Shown one piece after another: positions 12,597-23,814 of a stretch of 64,000 bases of DNA (the first letter of the stretch is position 1; every line of letters begins with the position of its first letter). A program made the translations under genes and the position numbers. The stretch comes from Nonomuraea coxensis DSM 45129 (GTDB taxonomy: Bacteria > Actinomycetota > Actinomycetes > Streptosporangiales > Streptosporangiaceae), in assembly GCF_019397265.1 (NCBI RefSeq), contig NZ_CP068985.1, positions 2,894,501 through 2,958,500 of the forward strand. Reading direction: 5' to 3'. Under the pieces are notes generated by a model. The model worked only from the letters and a program-made list of their open reading frames with translations, was not told the DNA's origin and did no database searches.

Positions 12597-12639
12597 GTAG
12601 GGCGGGTGGGACTTGAACCCACGACCCATGGATTATGAG
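12597..12639 (-). repeat. tRNA(CAU) 3'-half fragment, attachment-site scar copy 1
   Basis: Read on the minus strand this is the anticodon loop CTCATAA, the variable region, the T-arm GTGGGTTCAAGTCCCAC and the 3' acceptor strand CCGCCCTA. The D-arm and 5' acceptor are absent: the 5' side is an amidase fragment instead. An almost identical copy (one mismatch in 43) lies at 15764-15806. Integrase-driven elements use tRNA 3' ends as attB, so this is best read as an att core. Confidence 0.75.
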
Positions 12640-12798
12640 CCCGTGACCCTGCCGTTCGGGATCACGGGCGGCGGTCTGCCGGTCGGCGTGCAGCTCGTCT
12701 CCCGCTGGTACGACGAAGCGACCGTTTTACGCCTGGGTCGTGCCCTTGAGCAGGTCAGCCCCGTGCACGGTCGCGGCCCTGACCTCACTTGGCCGTGA
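12640..12798 (+). pseudogene. Amidase C-terminal fragment
   Basis: The frame gives PVTLPFGITGGGLPVGVQLV, then DEATVLRLGRALEQV and a stop. This is the C-terminal end of the amidase-signature family (GLPVGVQLVxxxxDEATLL). The rest of the gene is missing; homology begins exactly at the end of the tRNA-like repeat, so it was probably cut by integration there. Confidence 0.7.
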
Positions 12799-15763: not shown

Positions 15764-15806
15764 GTAGGGCGGGTGGGACTTGAACCCACGACCCACGGAT
15801 TATGAG
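15764..15806 (-). repeat. tRNA(CAU) 3'-half fragment, attachment-site scar copy 2
   Basis: Same structure as the copy at 12597-12639, with a single base difference. The T-arm, variable loop and anticodon loop CTCATAA are intact, but there is no 5' half: the bases above 15806 do not fold as a D-arm. It is flanked on the high-coordinate side by direct repeats of TGTATCGC and GAGCAACC, as expected for the integrase side of an integrated element. Confidence 0.75.
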
Positions 15807-15847
15807 TCGGTTCCTTTGATGTCGCCCAGCGCCGCGGAGTGTTGTTT

Positions 15848-16172: not shown

Positions 16173-18206
16173 CTACGCTGGCTCAAGCGGTATGTCTCTA
16201 GGCAAGTTCCAGGAAGTCTCGTTTGAGCTGTCTCCAGCAACGTGCAGGGTGCGCACGTTGGCGTCAAGCAGTCGAATGCTGGTTCCGTCAAAAAGATATG
16301 ACGCCGAGTAGCTGCGAGAGAACGGCTCCCCATCGGGGGGCCGTTGATATTCGGACACGGTAGTCTCCTTCTCCGCCAGAACTGTCCACAGCAGGCACTG
16401 CCCGCTCGCAGCGAGCGCCGCGCTAAGTGCTTCAGCGGTGACATGTACGGTGTCGGGACCCACTCCGCGGGCCGCGAAGCTCTCCACCACCAACGTGCCC
16501 GCTCTTCCCCACTGGAAGTCGCCGATACGCTCTAGGCCCAACGCTGAGCAGAACGCCGTCGACGGCAGAAATGTGTAGAGGTGTTTGCTTGCCGACTGGT
16601 CCCAGTCGTTGACGCCGCCGTATCGGGTCGTCGCGACAATGAGGCCCCCCGGTAAGGACATTTCCCCGTAGCGGGTGCCGTTTCGATCTTCCAGGTCAGG
16701 CCAGTCGGACTTGTACGGGTGATCGGCGAGCAGCAGACCGGACGGGCTCCCTGACTCGGGCATCCATCGGCCATAGAAGTCTTTACCTTCGGCCCATTGC
16801 GCCCATACGTCGGCGTCCGCCGCGTCGATGAGGTATGAGCGGATTTGGGCCCAAATGGTGTGGTGAGGTATGCCCGCGGCCGCGTCGTCTGGGTTCTGTG
16901 GCTGCGACCACTGATAATGGCCCTCCAGCACCAGCCAGGTTATGCCTGCCGCGTTCGTGCAGATGAGTAGACGGTCGACCGGCGGGCTGTGCTCGTCGTT
17001 GGTCACCCACTCGGGATCGAGGTGCTCTGGGAAGGTTGCGGCGACGGATGCGTACCAGGTGGCCGGAGTGTCCGCGTAGACCCGATTCTCGGCTCGGCGT
17101 TGCAGCATCGTCGGGTCGATGTCGTGGCCGTGGATGTCAAGGGGCGTCTCGTAGCGCGTTCGCCGGTCGTCGCGGCGGCTCGGGTTGAGTCCATAACGGT
17201 CGGTCATTCGACCGACGAGTTGGTTGAAGGCTATCCAGAGGTACTTCTGTGCGTATCCATCGTGCTTCTTGCCATCCGGCGACGAGGCTCGCGGAAGGTT
17301 CCGGTCGATGATGCCGAAGCGCTCCGGTGTCCATCCGAGTTTAAGAGCCTGCTCGAATAGGATTGTGCCGAGGTAATCGGCATCGATCTCTTCATCGAGC
17401 TTGAAGCTGCGGACCAGGGAGCCGACAACGTATTTGCGGAAATCGTCGAAGTCGGACATCGCGGGATGGTGGATAGCGCTATACCTATAGTTCGGTGGCC
17501 CGGCTAGCTCTTCGACCTCGGCCGGTGACCGTTGCGGCGCGATCCAGTCCGAGGCATACGGCGGGTGGACGCGCGTGGCGAGGCCCTCAATACTGGGCTG
17601 CCAGCCGTGGTCCAATGCAGCGTCCATCGCGCGACGTGCATAGTCTCGGCTGAGGTAATTCTGTGGCCAGTATCGTCGGCCAAGGGTGAAGTTGAGTACC
17701 GCTTTGGCGATGCCGATTGCGGTATTCGGGCTCAAGGTACGTTGGGCGATACCGCAGCCAGCCGCCAGCAATCGCTCCTCGATGTAGTCGTCGCCGCCGT
17801 TGACAAAGCCTTGCAGAATCGAGTCGTAGAGATGCGGCGCCGGCTCCAGCAGTGCGATGATTGCTTTTGTGGCGTCGTCTCGCGTAGGGCGATGAGAGGA
17901 TGACAACGTCCAGCAGAGAGCGAGTGCCGCGAGATAGCGGGTCTCGTCGTTGGCATCGGTGCTGGCCTCCGACCACGCCCAATCAATCAAACCGGGGAGA
18001 TGACCGGCGAGCTCGTCCTGTCGGTCACAAAAGTATGACCAGGTTACGTCCCGTTCAGGCAGGGTGAGCTCGGCGAGTTGACGGTGCAGCCACTCGGCGT
18101 TGAGCGGATGGCCCGGTACGGTGGCAACCTGCAGCACGGCGGCGTTGGCGTCATCGGTGAAGTCCGGGTTGCATTGGAGCTCCATGACGATCTCCGCAGT
18201 GCGATC
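16173..18206 (-). pseudogene. Avs-like STAND defence protein, C-terminal part (separated by IS)
   Basis: 677 codons that continue the gene at 19210-21423 in frame once the IS at 18210-19209 and one ACT repeat are removed. This half is the all-helical, repeat-rich sensor region. It includes a block typical of Avs-type STAND proteins, QKYLWIAFNQLVGRMTDRY, just after ERFGIIDRNLPR. An open frame extends up to 18263 into the IS end, so a free C-terminal piece might be made, but it would lack both nuclease and NTPase. Codon use is visibly less G/C-biased than in the flanking metabolic genes, in line with transfer. Confidence 0.75.
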
Positions 18207-18209
18207 ACT

Positions 18210-19209
18210 GAGCCGTTGTCGGTAACGAACAGTTGCTGTGCGTGATCTCCTTGGACCCGGCAAGCCAACCTAGTGATCAGCAAGCGTAAAGCCCCTGGTA
18301 GAAGTGGTCTTGACTAGAGATCAACTTCAGAACCAGAGGCTTCACGTGCCCACTAGTGTCACATACACCGCGACCCTCGACGTACGTCGCGAGACTGTGC
18401 TGTTCCTGGCCGCCCTGCTGCACACTGAACGCCGCCGTCGCGGCACCCGCAAAGGACGCCGGGCGCTGGGCTGCTTCGCCCAGGCAGTCTTGATCCTTCG
18501 CTGGTTCCTCGACAACACCCGGATCAAGCAACTGGCCACCGACCACCACATCAGCCGCAAGACCGCCTACCGCTACCTGCACGAAGGCATCGACGTCCTG
18601 GCAGCCCACGCCCCCGGCCTGCGGCAGGTGCTCGACAGCGCAGCCGACACGGGCCTGACTCACGTCAACCTCGACGGCATCGTCATCGCCACCGACCGCG
18701 TCGCCACGCCCGGCCCGAACGGCGCCGACCTGTGGTGGTCGGGCAAACACAAGCACCACGGCGGCAACATCCAGGTGATCTCCGCCCCGGACGGCTGGCC
18801 GTTGTGGGTCTCCGACGTACGCCCCGGCCGCGAACATGACATGACCTGCGCCCGCACCCACGGCATCATCGCCACCCTGGCCACCGCGCGGGACACGGTG
18901 CCGGCCCTGGCCGACCTGGGATATGAAGGCGCCGCCGACGTCATCCGGGTGCCGGTGAAGAAGAAGCGCGGCCAGGCCATACTCAGCGACGACCAGCACA
19001 CCTACAACAAGCTGCTGCGGGGCCTGCGCGGCGTCGGCGAACGCGCGAACGCCCTGCTCACCGTCACCTTCAAGGCTCTGCGCCGAGTCAGCCTCGACCC
19101 CTGGCGCATCGGGCAGATCGTCCGAGCCGCACTCGTGCTACTGCACCGCGAGCACGATTGGACCATATCGGCATCACACAACGCGATCTTCGGTTACTGA
19201 GAACGACTC
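18210..19209 (+). mobile_element. 1000-bp insertion sequence, IS5-like (DDE_Tnp_4), intact
   Basis: The ends are imperfect inverted repeats: GAGCCGTTGTCGGTAAC at 18210 and, on the other strand, GAGTCGTTCTCAGTAACC at 19209. They are flanked by a 3-bp ACT duplication (18207-18209 and 19210-19212). It carries one transposase gene and lies opposite to the disrupted defence gene. Removing the element and one ACT restores GTC-AGT-GAT-CGC in frame, which fixes the boundaries independently of the repeats. Confidence 0.9.
18346..19200 (+). CDS. IS5-like transposase (DDE_Tnp_4)
   Basis: 284 residues from GTG 18346; the same frame is open to 18304. An N-terminal HTH (IKQLATDHHISRKTAYRYLHEG) precedes the DDE domain, with VNLDGIVIATDR (first Asp), GREHDMT (second Asp), LADLGYEGA and GERANALL (last acidic region). 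The length and order match HTH_Tnp_4 plus DDE_Tnp_4 enzymes. The gene fills the element, stopping nine bases before its right end. Confidence 0.9.
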   Translation: MPTSVTYTATLDVRRETVLFLAALLHTERRRRGTRKGRRALGCFAQAVLILRWFLDNTRIKQLATDHHISRKTAYRYLHEGIDVLAAHAPGLRQVLDSAADTGLTHVNLDGIVIATDRVATPGPNGADLWWSGKHKHHGGNIQVISAPDGWPLWVSDVRPGREHDMTCARTHGIIATLATARDTVPALADLGYEGAADVIRVPVKKKRGQAILSDDQHTYNKLLRGLRGVGERANALLTVTFKALRRVSLDPWRIGQIVRAALVLLHREHDWTISASHNAIFGY

Positions 19210-21423
19210 ACTGACCGCTTCGAGCTTCCGCCAACCGAGGCTGAGCAGAAAGTCGGCATGAGCATCCGGATGATACTCAGCGGTCGAGATCTGCAGTATG
19301 TCGATCAATTCGACGCCGAACACCTCGGGAAGAACCGCGGCTAGGGCCTGCAACACCCCCGCATTGGTGAACCATCGCTCGGCCAGCCGGCTCACTTCAG
19401 CCTTCGCCCCATCAAGGCCGTCCGCCGCGATCAGCTTCGCCAGAGCGATGTCACCGAGCCGCTCGTATCCGAATCTGATGTACTCGGTCCCGTCGATCGA
19501 GAGGTTTGCTAGGACGGCCTCCTTCAGCAGGCCGTTGAGCAGACTCTGGCTCCATTTACGGTCCGGAAGTAGCGCTGACGTGATGCGGTCGACGTCCGCC
19601 CTGAGCAGCCTGCGACCTTGGGCGTGCATGGCAGCGGCGATTTGCTCGACGGCGCGACGGACGAGCTCGCTGGTGCGGTCATAGTCGCAGCGTTCCTCGG
19701 CTGAGAGTCGAATGTCCATCGCGTCGAGAAAGCTGTCGTAGATCCACGATGTTCCGATGCCTGTGCGAGGGAAGCGGCGCTTTCCGCTGGTCATCAGTGC
19801 CGTGCAGAGGAGTTTGAGGAACAGCGGATTGGTGAATTCGGGGTCCATCATCGGGAATGAGGGCCGCTCGATGCCGTACCAATCGAGGAACTGCCGAATT
19901 GCGTCGCGAGGAACCTCCTCGAATCCAGTGTGTTGAAACACAGGGAGCCGAGCCTGCAATATATCCGACAACGTGTCGGCGAGAAATTCGGTGCGACAGG
20001 AGAGGACAAGTCTGATGTGACGGTACTTGGCGACGTCGTTGAGGAAGCTGGACAAGTATTTGTTCCACAGCTGCCGGTCGGCCGATTCATTCAACCCGTC
20101 GATGACGATTAGGCCGATTTCGCCGACGGCCTGGCAGGCCGCGTCAAAGGTGGTCAGTAGCTGGCTTGCCGGGTTTTGAAATCCGATGATCCTACCCAGG
20201 TCGGCTTCGATGGGACCGTGTTCGAACTGCTCACCGAGCGCAATGATCGTTGGTAAGGCGTTCGCGGCACGCGTTTTGGCGAGGTCGCACAGTAGGTGAG
20301 TCTTTCCCGCGCCGCCCGTGCCGGTGACGAGGATGGCTGCTGCCTCGAAGCCACGCCATGCACGACCGGCGCGCAGCTCGTTCAGCTCGGCAACCGCTGA
20401 TCGAATCGCCGCGAGCTGGCCGTAGAGGCTGCCCGCGTTGTCGGTGTAATAGCGATCCTTGAGGCAATGCTGCCGGAGCAGGTCCGAGACGCTCGCTGAG
20501 GGAGCCTCCATGGCCTCGATCGCTGGGGTGAAGTCGGGCAGCACCCCATGTGGTTGCCGGGCCTGCCTTGCGGCTTCGGTTACTAGCTCTTCGAGGCCAT
20601 CGAGGCGCTCGTTTAGCATCGCGATCGCGGGCTCGAACAAGTCTGGGCGTTCTCTGGGCACCGACAGGCCATAGATGCCGCGGGCCTTGCGGAGGGTAGC
20701 CAGTGCGTTCCGAATGTCGTGTTCGAACGCAGGGGTGTGGGCCAGGCCGTCGAAGACGGCGCGGATGGGTAGTTCCACGTTCAGTGCGGGGCTGTATCGG
20801 CCGCCTGCGTCGGCTTCGGCCCGAGCCGCAATCTGTCGGAGTCGATCTTCCGAGAAGACGTCCAGATCGAACCAGTAGCGCAGTCGCCCCGCTTGCGACG
20901 GCTGGAGCAAGCACTCGTTGAGTTGGGTCTCGCCGATGTATTCGAACGTCACCGCCCTACCTGCCGATACGGCGGCGGTTTCCCATCTCCTGACGTGCTC
21001 GTTCCATTTCGTCCACGCACTCTTCGTCTTGGCGGTATCACCGCCGGGCCGGTTGTACGGCATGAGCACGTAGTATCGCTCAAGAGTGGGCTCGGTCGTC
21101 AGGACGCGGCGAATCGACTTGTCGATCTGCGCGAGAGCGTCGTCGTCAAGCGTGAACAGGTACTTCGCCTGCCATCCCCAGACCGCGCCGCCAGGCAGTT
21201 CGCCTCGTCCTTCCCGTCCCCCGTCGGGGTTGCCAAACGTGGTAAACGTCGTGCTGGACGGCCACGTGACCAGACAGCCGTAAATCATTAGCTGGTTACC
21301 GAGCTCCTCGAACCCGTCACGACGCGACCCTGACGGCGCCTTGCCGCGGATCTGATGCCAGTTGATCTCAGGGAGTTGAGTCACGGAGTCTCGCATTTCG
21401 GCGGCAGAAACAACGCTAGGCAC
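19210..21423 (-). pseudogene. Avs-like defence protein, nuclease-NTPase N-terminal part (interrupted by IS)
   Basis: 738 codons from GTG 21423 (ATG 21396 is an alternative; neither has a clear ribosome site). Residues 20-190 look like a PD-(D/E)XK nuclease of Mrr/Cap4 type: SRRDGFEELGNQL, then NPDGGREGRGE (Asp67) and WGWQAKY (Gln85, Lys87). The STAND ATPase has Walker A GTGGAGKT at 368-375, Walker B LIVIDGLNES at 438-447 and the sensor LVLSCRTEF. The IS enters after the serine of SLGWRKLEAVS. The disrupted frame runs on for 11 codons (to 19174) in IS sequence. STAND NTPases of this kind sense phage proteins and trigger DNA cleavage; here the sensor half is disconnected, so function is probably lost. 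Confidence 0.8.
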
Positions 21424-21457
21424 GGTCCAAGGTGGTCACTTTAGTGGCCGTTCCGCC

Positions 21458-22135
21458 TCATTTGCCACATCCCGATCGACCTGAAAGCTCGGCAACTGCG
21501 AGGATCGAGGCGAGGTCGAGTTCCCCGTGACCCTGCTGCAAGTGGTCGTACGTGGCAAAGGCGTAGCGCGATGGCTGGCGTGGAAGAGAAACCTCGCCCG
21601 CCCAGTCGTCGATCCACCTAGCCGGAGTGGAGCGCAGCGGGCGAGCCCGGAGCGGGCCGCCCCCTTGCCTCTCCACGTTGATCCACAGGAAGAAGTTCGG
21701 GCTGTCGAGCTTGTCGAGCGACGCGTAAGGGTGTTGACCCTCGCGTCCGCGCCCACTGCGACGTTGCTGGACGACGCTGATCGAGTTTCGACGTAGACCG
21801 CGCCGCCGTCCTTCTCTGCGCGGAAGTCCGCGCGGTGATTGATCCCGTCGACTTCCGGATGGCAAGTCACGGTGTAGCCCATCCGGAGAAGGCACTCATG
21901 CAGGTACAACTCGAAGAAGGCTCCCTGGAATGCCGGTTGTCCCTGGAGTGCAGCCGTCCCCTGACGTCCGCATGGGCGTCCGAGCAGAGCCGAACGAACC
22001 AGTCCTCGATCAGGTCCCCACCTGGCCCCAGAATGGGCCTGCCAGACAGTCGATGAACTGAAAGTGGCTGTCCCCGTGTTCGGCCAGGGACGGGTCGGTT
22101 CGCTCGACCGCCGAGAAAATGTTCACGCCGATCAT
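21458..22135 (-). pseudogene. Frameshifted conserved actinobacterial hypothetical gene
   Basis: Three frames carry successive parts of one protein. MIGVNIFSAVERTDPSLAEH to FIDCLAGPFWGQV begins at 22135. FFELYLHECLLRMGYTVTCH with RADFRAEKDGGAVYVET follows at about 21925-21760. SLDKLDSPNFFLWINVERQG then runs to 21458. I know this arrangement from uncharacterised actinobacterial proteins. The ADF...VYVE pattern recalls a PD-(D/E)XK-type fold, but that is only a hint. At least two frameshifts make it non-functional. Confidence 0.65.
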
Positions 22136-22437
22136 CACACCCGGTCCACCGGCGCCGGGGGCAAGGCGGGTTTCCCGCCTGGTGAGGCCTTGCGAACCCC
22201 AACCAGGGCCGCGCCGACCACGAGCTTGATCAATCCGACCCGAAAATGCAACGTCCGAGAGGTCTGTGCGCAGATCTTGCGTCCAGCTCGCGATCACTGT
22301 CACAGGAGTGCAGTCGACGTCATACCACGGCCAGCGTAGAGGGGGCCGGGCGCGTCAGTGCCCGGCCGCGAATTCCGCGGCAGACCGGTAGCGTTTCTTC
22401 CCGACCCCGGCCGGCAGCATTCTGAAGGACACCCCCC
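22136..22437. other. Intergenic region between divergent gene remnants
   Basis: About 300 bases between the frameshifted gene and the nuclease-start remnant. It should hold promoters for both directions, but I see no clear -35/-10 pair and no repeat. Confidence 0.4.
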
Positions 22438-22571
22438 GTGAACATCCCCGATATCGAATTCACGCGGATTCGGTCACTTCGCCCTGGTGGGCAACGCGAC
22501 GGGTACGAGCAGTTCATCTGCGAACAGGTTGCACAGGAGTCACCCGCGGCCGACGCCAAGTTCGTCTCACT
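22438..22571 (+). pseudogene. N-terminal remnant of a second Avs/Cap4-like nuclease gene
   Basis: From GTG 22438 (GAAGGA upstream) the frame reads IPDIEFTRIRSLRPGGQRDG, then YEQFICEQVAQESPAADAKF. It parallels the start of the larger defence protein (LPEINWHQIRG...SRRDGFEELGNQL). In such nucleases a GGDGGVE-like catalytic block should follow, but here the sequence is cut by the IS at 22572. Only about 44 codons remain. Confidence 0.65.
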
Positions 22572-23471
22572 GAGTGCTTTTCATCCCGCCTCGCGGCGCT
22601 GAAGGACGAGGATCGCTTTGACGAGCTGACCTGCGAGGAGTGGGCAGCACCGGAGTTTGCGCAGAATACGCCAGGTCTTCAGTTGTGCATTGGCCCGTTC
22701 TCCCGGTCCGCGGAGCTTGGCGTGAGCGGCGTTGGCGGCCTTCTGGGAGGCGGGCTTGTTGCGGCCCTTGTAGGGCACGCGTACGTGCTCGCCGGCTCCG
22801 ACGTAGCCCTTGTCGGCGAGGGTGATCAGGTCGGCGGCCTTGAGGCGGCGCAGGATGCCCCAGATCCGGGCGGCTTTGAGGTCGTGGACGGAGCCGGGCA
22901 GGGAGCCGGAGGTCCACAAGGGTGTGCCGTCGGGGGTGGCCAGGATTTGGATGTTCATGCCGTGCTTCTTGTGTTTGCCGGAGTAGTAGGGCCGGTCGGC
23001 GGCGACGCGGTCGATGGGGATGAGGGTGCCGTCCAGGACCAGGTAGGGGTAGCCGGCCCGCTTGGCCGCGCGTAACACCTGCTCCAGGCGGGGCGAGCGG
23101 CGGGCGAGCAGGGCGATGGCCTCATGGATGTAGCGCCAGGCGGTCGCGATGCCGACGCCGAAGCCTGCGGCGACCTCTGCCAGGGTCTCGCCTTTGCGCA
23201 GGTGGACGAGGACGAGCAGGGCTTGTTGGCCGGGGTTGAGGCGACGCCAGGGCGAGTTGATCGTCTTGCGGTGCCGGCGCAGGATGCCGGACAGATAGGA
23301 CAGGGTCTGAGGTGACAACGGCAGCGCGGCGCGGTAGAACAGCAACTCGGAGCCTCTGGTCTAACGGTTGATCTTGGTCGACAACCCTTCTACCAGGGGC
23401 TCTTCTACTTGTCGATCAGACCCACTCGCGCAGCATGCCCGCGACCTGCGGCTTCAGGATGGAAAACACTC
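22572..23471 (-). mobile_element. 900-bp insertion sequence, IS5-like, intact ends
   Basis: The inverted repeats are GAGTGCTTTTCATCCCG (plus strand, from 22572) and GAGTGTTTTCCATCCTG (minus strand, from 23471), 14 of 17 identical. ACT lies immediately outside both ends (22569-22571 and 23472-23474). It is related to the 1000-bp element: both begin with GAG, are flanked by ACT and share the stretch CCCCTGGTAGAAG upstream of the transposase. Confidence 0.87.
22581..23345 (-). CDS. IS5-like transposase (DDE_Tnp_4)
   Basis: 254 residues. The HTH is TLAEVAAGFGVGIATAWRYI. The DDE blocks are LVLDGTLIPIDRV, GSVHDLKAARI, LADKGYVGAGEHV and GPGERANAQLKTW. It is full length for this group and appears intact. 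It is similar to, but clearly distinct from, the transposase at 18346-19200. Confidence 0.9.
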   Translation of the reverse strand: MLFYRAALPLSPQTLSYLSGILRRHRKTINSPWRRLNPGQQALLVLVHLRKGETLAEVAAGFGVGIATAWRYIHEAIALLARRSPRLEQVLRAAKRAGYPYLVLDGTLIPIDRVAADRPYYSGKHKKHGMNIQILATPDGTPLWTSGSLPGSVHDLKAARIWGILRRLKAADLITLADKGYVGAGEHVRVPYKGRNKPASQKAANAAHAKLRGPGERANAQLKTWRILRKLRCCPLLAGQLVKAILVLQRREAG

Positions 23472-23814
23472 ACTGGATGAAGGAGTCCTGACCCGACCGA
23501 CCGGCAGTGAGGCGGTGATGGCCGAGCAGATGGCTCACTTGGCCGCCCTGGATGAGCACCCCCGCATCAACATCCGCGTGCTCCCGCACAACTCCTGGCT
23601 GACCACCGGCTTGCAAGGAGCTTTCATTCTCGCTGGCGGGCCAGGGATGCCAGATATGGTCTACCTCGAGTCCATCATCACAGGCCAGATCACGGCCGAC
23701 AGCGAACGCGTCCGCGAGGTCAGGCTGAAGTACGAGATGCTGCACAACGAAGCCCTGCCCCGTCGAGCTTCGCTGCAGCTCATAAGGGAGATGGCAGAGA
23801 AATGGACGAACTGA
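23472..23814 (+). pseudogene. XRE-family regulator (DUF5753), C-terminal fragment
   Basis: The frame LDEGVLTRPTGSEAVMAEQM and onward through NIRVLPHNSW, MVYLESIITGQI and a TGA stop is the DUF5753 domain of actinobacterial XRE regulators. The N-terminal helix-turn-helix (about 150 residues) is missing; the IS lies directly at the break. Its stop overlaps the DUF397 start, the normal arrangement of this pair. Confidence 0.8.

Follow-up and report, generated by a model that had tools for sequence, protein, structure and literature searches.

Avs1 to Avs4 are described as sensors that kill through a nuclease upon recognition of a phage protein, which may be the (large) terminase, the portal or another protein (PMC12931631). 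Insertion sequences (IS) are also reported to break defence genes. IS112 disrupts SalI and another restriction-modification gene in Streptomyces albus (PMC3937824), and Sheng 2023 (PMC10359306) reports 12 clusters of defence genes with insertions of IS1 and IS10. Restriction-deficient strains of Staphylococcus aureus are presented as gateways for gene transfer (PMC13216270). The locus described here resembles the IS112 case in that an IS has naturally broken an actinomycete defence gene, but the genes reported for S. albus are restriction-modification genes whereas the gene in Nonomuraea encodes a STAND sensor. It is also the same kind of event as those of Sheng 2023, namely IS transposition into defence genes of natural genomes. 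However, the IS elements are others than those of this locus, and the defence genes cited from that report are RM, Dnd and CRISPR-Cas, not Avs. A literature search of titles and abstract openings, with incomplete journal coverage, returned no report of this locus or of an IS in an Avs2 gene. Since the inactivation of defence genes by IS is already documented, the locus adds one more example to a known kind and is ordinary as an event.

In this study, we analysed a window of 64,000 nucleotides (the whole stretch of DNA under study) from Nonomuraea coxensis DSM 45129, whose genome is a single contig of 9.07 Mb (NZ_CP068985.1; window at 2,894,501-2,958,500). Positions 16173-21423 of the window are occupied by a single Avs2-like gene that a 1000-bp IS interrupts. 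On the minus strand, the ORFs 19174-21423 (749 aa) and 16173-18263 (696 aa) lie on either side of a plus-strand transposase ORF (18304-19200). Because both of these ORFs include ends encoded by the IS, the native parts of the gene were taken as 19210-21423 and 16173-18206 on the minus strand. The N-terminal part comprises 738 codons, with a nuclease-like N-terminus and a STAND NTPase, and the C-terminal sensor part 677 codons and a stop. The last 11 residues of the 749-aa ORF are IS-encoded and follow 738 native residues. The 696-aa ORF starts inside the IS, so that the first codons of its frame are IS-derived and the native start is lost. Besides the IS, neither part contains a stop or a frameshift. 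A second copy of the gene was not found elsewhere in the genome among the scored candidates.

The boundaries of the 1000-bp element (IS1 of this locus; 18210-19209, plus strand) were set by comparison of seven full copies in the genome. This comparison fixed the borders that an earlier note on this DNA had proposed, with two minus-strand frames around a 1000-bp IS with GAG/CTC ends and an ACT duplication. The element begins with GAG and ends with CTC, and its inverted ends are imperfect, with 15 of the first 22 bases in agreement. As the comparison of copies indicates, it lies between the two copies of an ACT target-site duplication, at 18207-18209 and at 19210-19212, the latter being also the last codon of the N-terminal part (AGT on the minus strand). 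The span that the note had removed in silico, 18207-19209, was right, as it equals the IS plus one copy of the duplication. The seven copies are identical and each is flanked by a matching 3-bp ANT duplication (ACT at two, AGT at three, AAT and ATT at one each). The genome also retains a piece of the element, 111-114 bp long and 98% identical. When the other IS copies were checked for a frame spanning the element, one other site (L025) showed a 512-codon frame of coding-like composition.

The transposase of the 1000-bp element contains a DDE_Tnp_4 domain (E 5.7e-27), as does that of a second, 900-bp element at the locus (IS2, discussed below; E 1.6e-27). Both fell below the 140-bit cutoff of the NCBIfam IS5 transposase family NF033581 (89.2 and 101.2 bits, respectively), and are therefore named IS5-like only. 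A 3-bp ANT duplication is a trait of the ISL2 group, and it was seen at all seven copies of the 1000-bp element and at all six copies of IS2.

The uninterrupted state of the gene is preserved in relatives. In N. pusilla DSM 43357, 1415 codons run uninterrupted on the minus strand (L015:1854-6101), the junction has only one AGT, and identity to the window is 99% in the N-terminal part and 98% in the C-terminal part. The junction predicted by the note for the 1415-codon frame, GTC AGT GAT CGC, is present in N. pusilla as codons 737-740. The gene is likewise unbroken in Streptosporangium canum (93%) and in Actinomadura chibensis (76%). A coincidental alignment of two frames is ruled out, since the same frame is unbroken in a relative. 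The possibility that the two parts are naturally separate genes is also ruled out, by the uninterrupted relatives and by homologues that align over the junction and not to one half only; all three close relatives found encode a single gene. The number of such relatives counts against the strength of this support, as the sensor half was matched in only 2 of the 54 genus genomes, the window's own and N. pusilla. The fourth matching locus in the scan for relatives was in Porphyromonas endodontalis (21% over residues 340-1243). Among 297 genomes of the family, with two candidates scored in each, the intact protein had any match in 13. These include the window genome, N. pusilla and one uninterrupted gene at 93% (in genome G233, perhaps S. 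canum itself); the remaining matches were at 27-42% identity, and several of them were partial.

The note had read the two frames as one Avs-like STAND gene, and profile and structure comparisons agree with it. The PADLOC Avs2 profile PDLC02164 (1504 positions) is the best match of each half, and the two halves are collinear on it: the N-terminal part covers positions 2-737 and the C-terminal part 728-1004 and 1110-1485. Each half also matches the Avs2 structure PDB 9o4e. The intact N. pusilla protein scores 954 bits on PDLC02164, and it aligns across the junction to both the profile and 9o4e. It contains the Walker A and B motifs (GTGGAGKT at 368 and LIVIDGLNE at 438), both of which are present in the window ORF, and its NTPase region aligns to the NTPase of 9o4e; Pfam NACHT and AAA families matched only below their cutoffs. 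A Pfam search with the sensor half found no family. The protein thus shares with Avs2 its domain order and a collinear alignment over the NTPase and sensor, but its first ~190 residues have no sequence alignment to 9o4e. It further differs from known Avs2 in that the gene is interrupted here and in that its intact relatives are under the NCBI cutoff. The NCBIfam Avs2 equivalog NF041813 gave 682 bits for N. pusilla and 687.8 bits for S. canum against a cutoff of 1000 bits, and 315.6 and 349.6 bits for the window halves. As the intact relatives miss this cutoff, we call the gene Avs2-like and not an Avs2 equivalog.

The N-terminal domain is likely to be a nuclease, as judged from conserved residues and a structure model of modest confidence. 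Residues D55, E59, Q73 and K75 (alignment A1) are invariant in all nine aligned sequences, and a D, an E and a QxK are compatible with the PD-(D/E)xK site motif. The model of 214 residues has a pLDDT of 68, with low confidence at residues 161-182 and 196-214. By fold it comes nearest to the N-terminal part of Avs4 (8dgf), the best Foldseek match (E 7e-4, rmsd 14.5), for which the VIA comparison gave Z 9.3 with an rmsd of 4.4 over 134 residues; the next rows, of other kinds, stood at Z 8.7 and 8.6. The match list includes the restriction-type nucleases EcoT38I, Shedu and MspJI together with other kinds of protein at similar Z. By analogy with Avs1-4, the intact protein would be a sensor of a phage protein.

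The insertion was described in the note as recent, and three observations uphold this: the IS copies are identical, dN/dS is undisturbed, and no comparable full-length copy of the 1000-bp element was found among the scored candidates (eight per genome) of the 53 other genus genomes. Among the matches listed for those genomes, the best long ones were at 82% over 168-1000, 77% over 64-995 and 84% over 1-650, and a match at 94% spans only 734-1000. Compared with N. pusilla, the N-terminal part in the window (738 codons) differs by 15 synonymous and 7 non-synonymous changes, and the C-terminal part (678 codons) by 17 and 15, respectively. The corresponding dN/dS values are 0.15 and 0.27; a comparison of two intact genes, that of N. 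pusilla with that of S. canum, gave 0.13 and 0.28. The data fit an insertion after nearly all of the divergence between the window and N. pusilla. In three comparisons, the dN of the sensor part (16173-18206) was 2.3 to 2.6 times that of the effector-NTPase part (19210-21423), which would fit a faster change of the sensor.

The gene lies at the edge of a region bounded by tRNA-Met sequences. A partial tRNA-Met repeat at 15764-15819 (plus strand), a putative att site, bounds the region with the gene, and repeat comparison revealed a second partial repeat at 12597-12643 (plus strand). The whole tRNA-Met is located at the opposite end (chromosome 2,981,596-2,981,670; L041:6597-6671), beside a 677-codon ORF (L041:4141-6174) in which tyrosine-recombinase-like motifs were read by eye. 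The bounded stretch is 71 kb here and 15.4 kb in N. pusilla, where the repeat (L015, 1446) and the tRNA (16841-16915) are accompanied by an integrase-like remnant; a LysR-like frame, also read by eye, follows the tRNA in both genomes. In the examined stretches of S. canum and A. chibensis, no tRNA was found. From window position 15764 to chromosome position 2,981,670, the 71-kb stretch contains very long frames of high GC3 and the integrase-like frame next to the tRNA. The gene probably belongs to a tRNA-Met-integrated island, which may take up part or all of this stretch. The locus is ~98-99% identical between the window genome and N. pusilla, whereas on the far side of the tRNA, where the chromosomes match, identity is 76-88%. 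Since the identity of the locus is far above that of the chromosome and the first Avs2-like gene of S. canum, a member of another genus, is 93% identical at the protein level, horizontal transfer is the simple explanation, and we infer that the locus arrived by this route. The two IS elements have 13 copies in total, five of which fall within 250 kb (2.77-3.02 Mb) of the 9.07-Mb chromosome.

In N. pusilla and S. canum, the intact gene adjoins a second Avs2-like gene (L015:7116-11291 and L046:1768-6129, respectively). This second gene shares 25-28% identity with the first, and its copies in the two species are 87% identical. In the window, only a remnant of this divergently transcribed gene is left at 22438-22571 (plus strand), ~44-45 codons of a protein that has 1391 aa in N. 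pusilla. Identity between the window and N. pusilla spans the intergenic region and the first 134 bases of the second gene, and stops at the left end of IS2 (22572-23471, minus strand; transposase 22581-23345). The remainder of the gene had no match among the candidates scored in this genome. Right at the other end of IS2, a DUF5753 fragment (23472-23814, plus strand) begins at profile position 73 of 178. A simple insertion of IS2 into the second gene is ruled out, because that gene does not continue in the DUF5753 fragment. Of the six genomic copies of IS2, five are identical and one has one mismatch, and all six have matching ANT duplications; at this locus ACT stands on both sides, a pattern also expected if IS2 had simply inserted into a site that was altered before. 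The partner gene was most likely removed by a deletion or recombination involving IS2, as far as the arrangement of the sequences indicates. No DNA-level match to the window was found beyond the first gene in the examined flanks of A. chibensis, and the pair may therefore not be universal. Two further observations concern this neighbourhood. The interval between the two Avs2-like genes (21424-22437) contains a remnant of another minus-strand frame, which is longer in one frame in N. pusilla. Beside the pair in N. pusilla, and in the same tRNA-Met-bounded stretch, is a type IIG restriction-methyltransferase (L015:11423-14737; PADLOC PDLC03631, 1096 bits).

Taken as a whole, we regard it as very likely that an intact Avs2-like gene was inactivated by a recent insertion of the 1000-bp IS and that its partner was also lost at IS2. 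The 1415-codon gene, with its nuclease-like N-terminus, NTPase and C-terminal sensor, would probably have been brought in with the tRNA-Met-integrated island. A recent insertion of the 1000-bp IS5-like element between the NTPase and the sensor would then have inactivated it in this Nonomuraea lineage, leaving an N-terminal fragment of 738 native and 11 IS-encoded residues without the sensor and a C-terminal fragment without its native start. The divergent paralogue would have disappeared at the second IS, with a deletion or rearrangement associated with IS2 as the probable cause. Both the loss of function and the order of the two IS events are our inferences from this arrangement, and the strain could still produce the 749-aa effector-NTPase fragment. 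For the event itself, an insertion into a mobile region that collects IS elements is a sufficient account, and no special selection is needed.

It is conceivable, but we consider it unlikely, that the loss was selected, as the note had suggested, either because the sensor or the pair was self-harmful or because its loss eased the uptake of a phage, plasmid or island. Two different IS elements within 4.4 kb affect both members of the pair, and for a 9-kb locus named beforehand the probability of receiving two of the 13 copies is 7.6e-5. Gene gain is also reported for immune-deficient S. aureus strains (PMC13216270). However, the locus was picked afterwards, and any two of 13 randomly placed copies fell within 4.4 kb of each other in 7.5% of simulations; the clustering is striking only for this particular locus, chosen after the fact. 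The region itself collects IS elements, as the five copies in 250 kb indicate, neutral decay there would look the same as selection, and the case comes from one genome only.

The IS might also act as a reversible switch that, by precise excision, gives some cells of a population the whole gene again; the note, too, had held the knock-out to be possibly reversible. The duplication that flanks the IS, and the empty site with its uninterrupted frame in N. pusilla, would allow this. However, the partner gene cannot return by excision, so that at best the first gene would be restored, and the evidence base is one assembly, which is unable to show an excised copy. Precise excision of such IS elements is rare, and we give this explanation very little credence. 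Expression of both fragments as a split sensor-effector pair appears just as improbable. Both frames are open and dN/dS is unchanged, but the protein is one chain in relatives, the C-terminal part lacks its native start and has its first frame codons in the IS, and an unchanged dN/dS is equally expected of a young insertion. An assembly artefact, of which IS elements are a common cause, is practically excluded because the seven copies, all on a single contig, differ in their flanks and are each bordered by their own matching duplication.

The inactivation of the Avs2-like gene by a recent IS insertion provides a clean natural case in which an IS has broken an NLR-like sensor gene of a bacterium, with empty sites in relatives and a measure of recency, and N. 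pusilla offers an intact allele of 98-99% identity for comparison. The part most worth following is the divergent Avs2-like pair on the tRNA-Met island, whose cooperation is testable. The two different Avs2-like genes might form an interdependent functional unit, in which either gene, once its partner had gone, brought no benefit or did damage, so that selection favoured the second IS event; we regard this as quite improbable. Paired NLRs in plants are a comparable arrangement of receptors. If the two genes do depend on each other, the divergent Avs2-like pair would represent paired receptors in the STAND immunity of bacteria.
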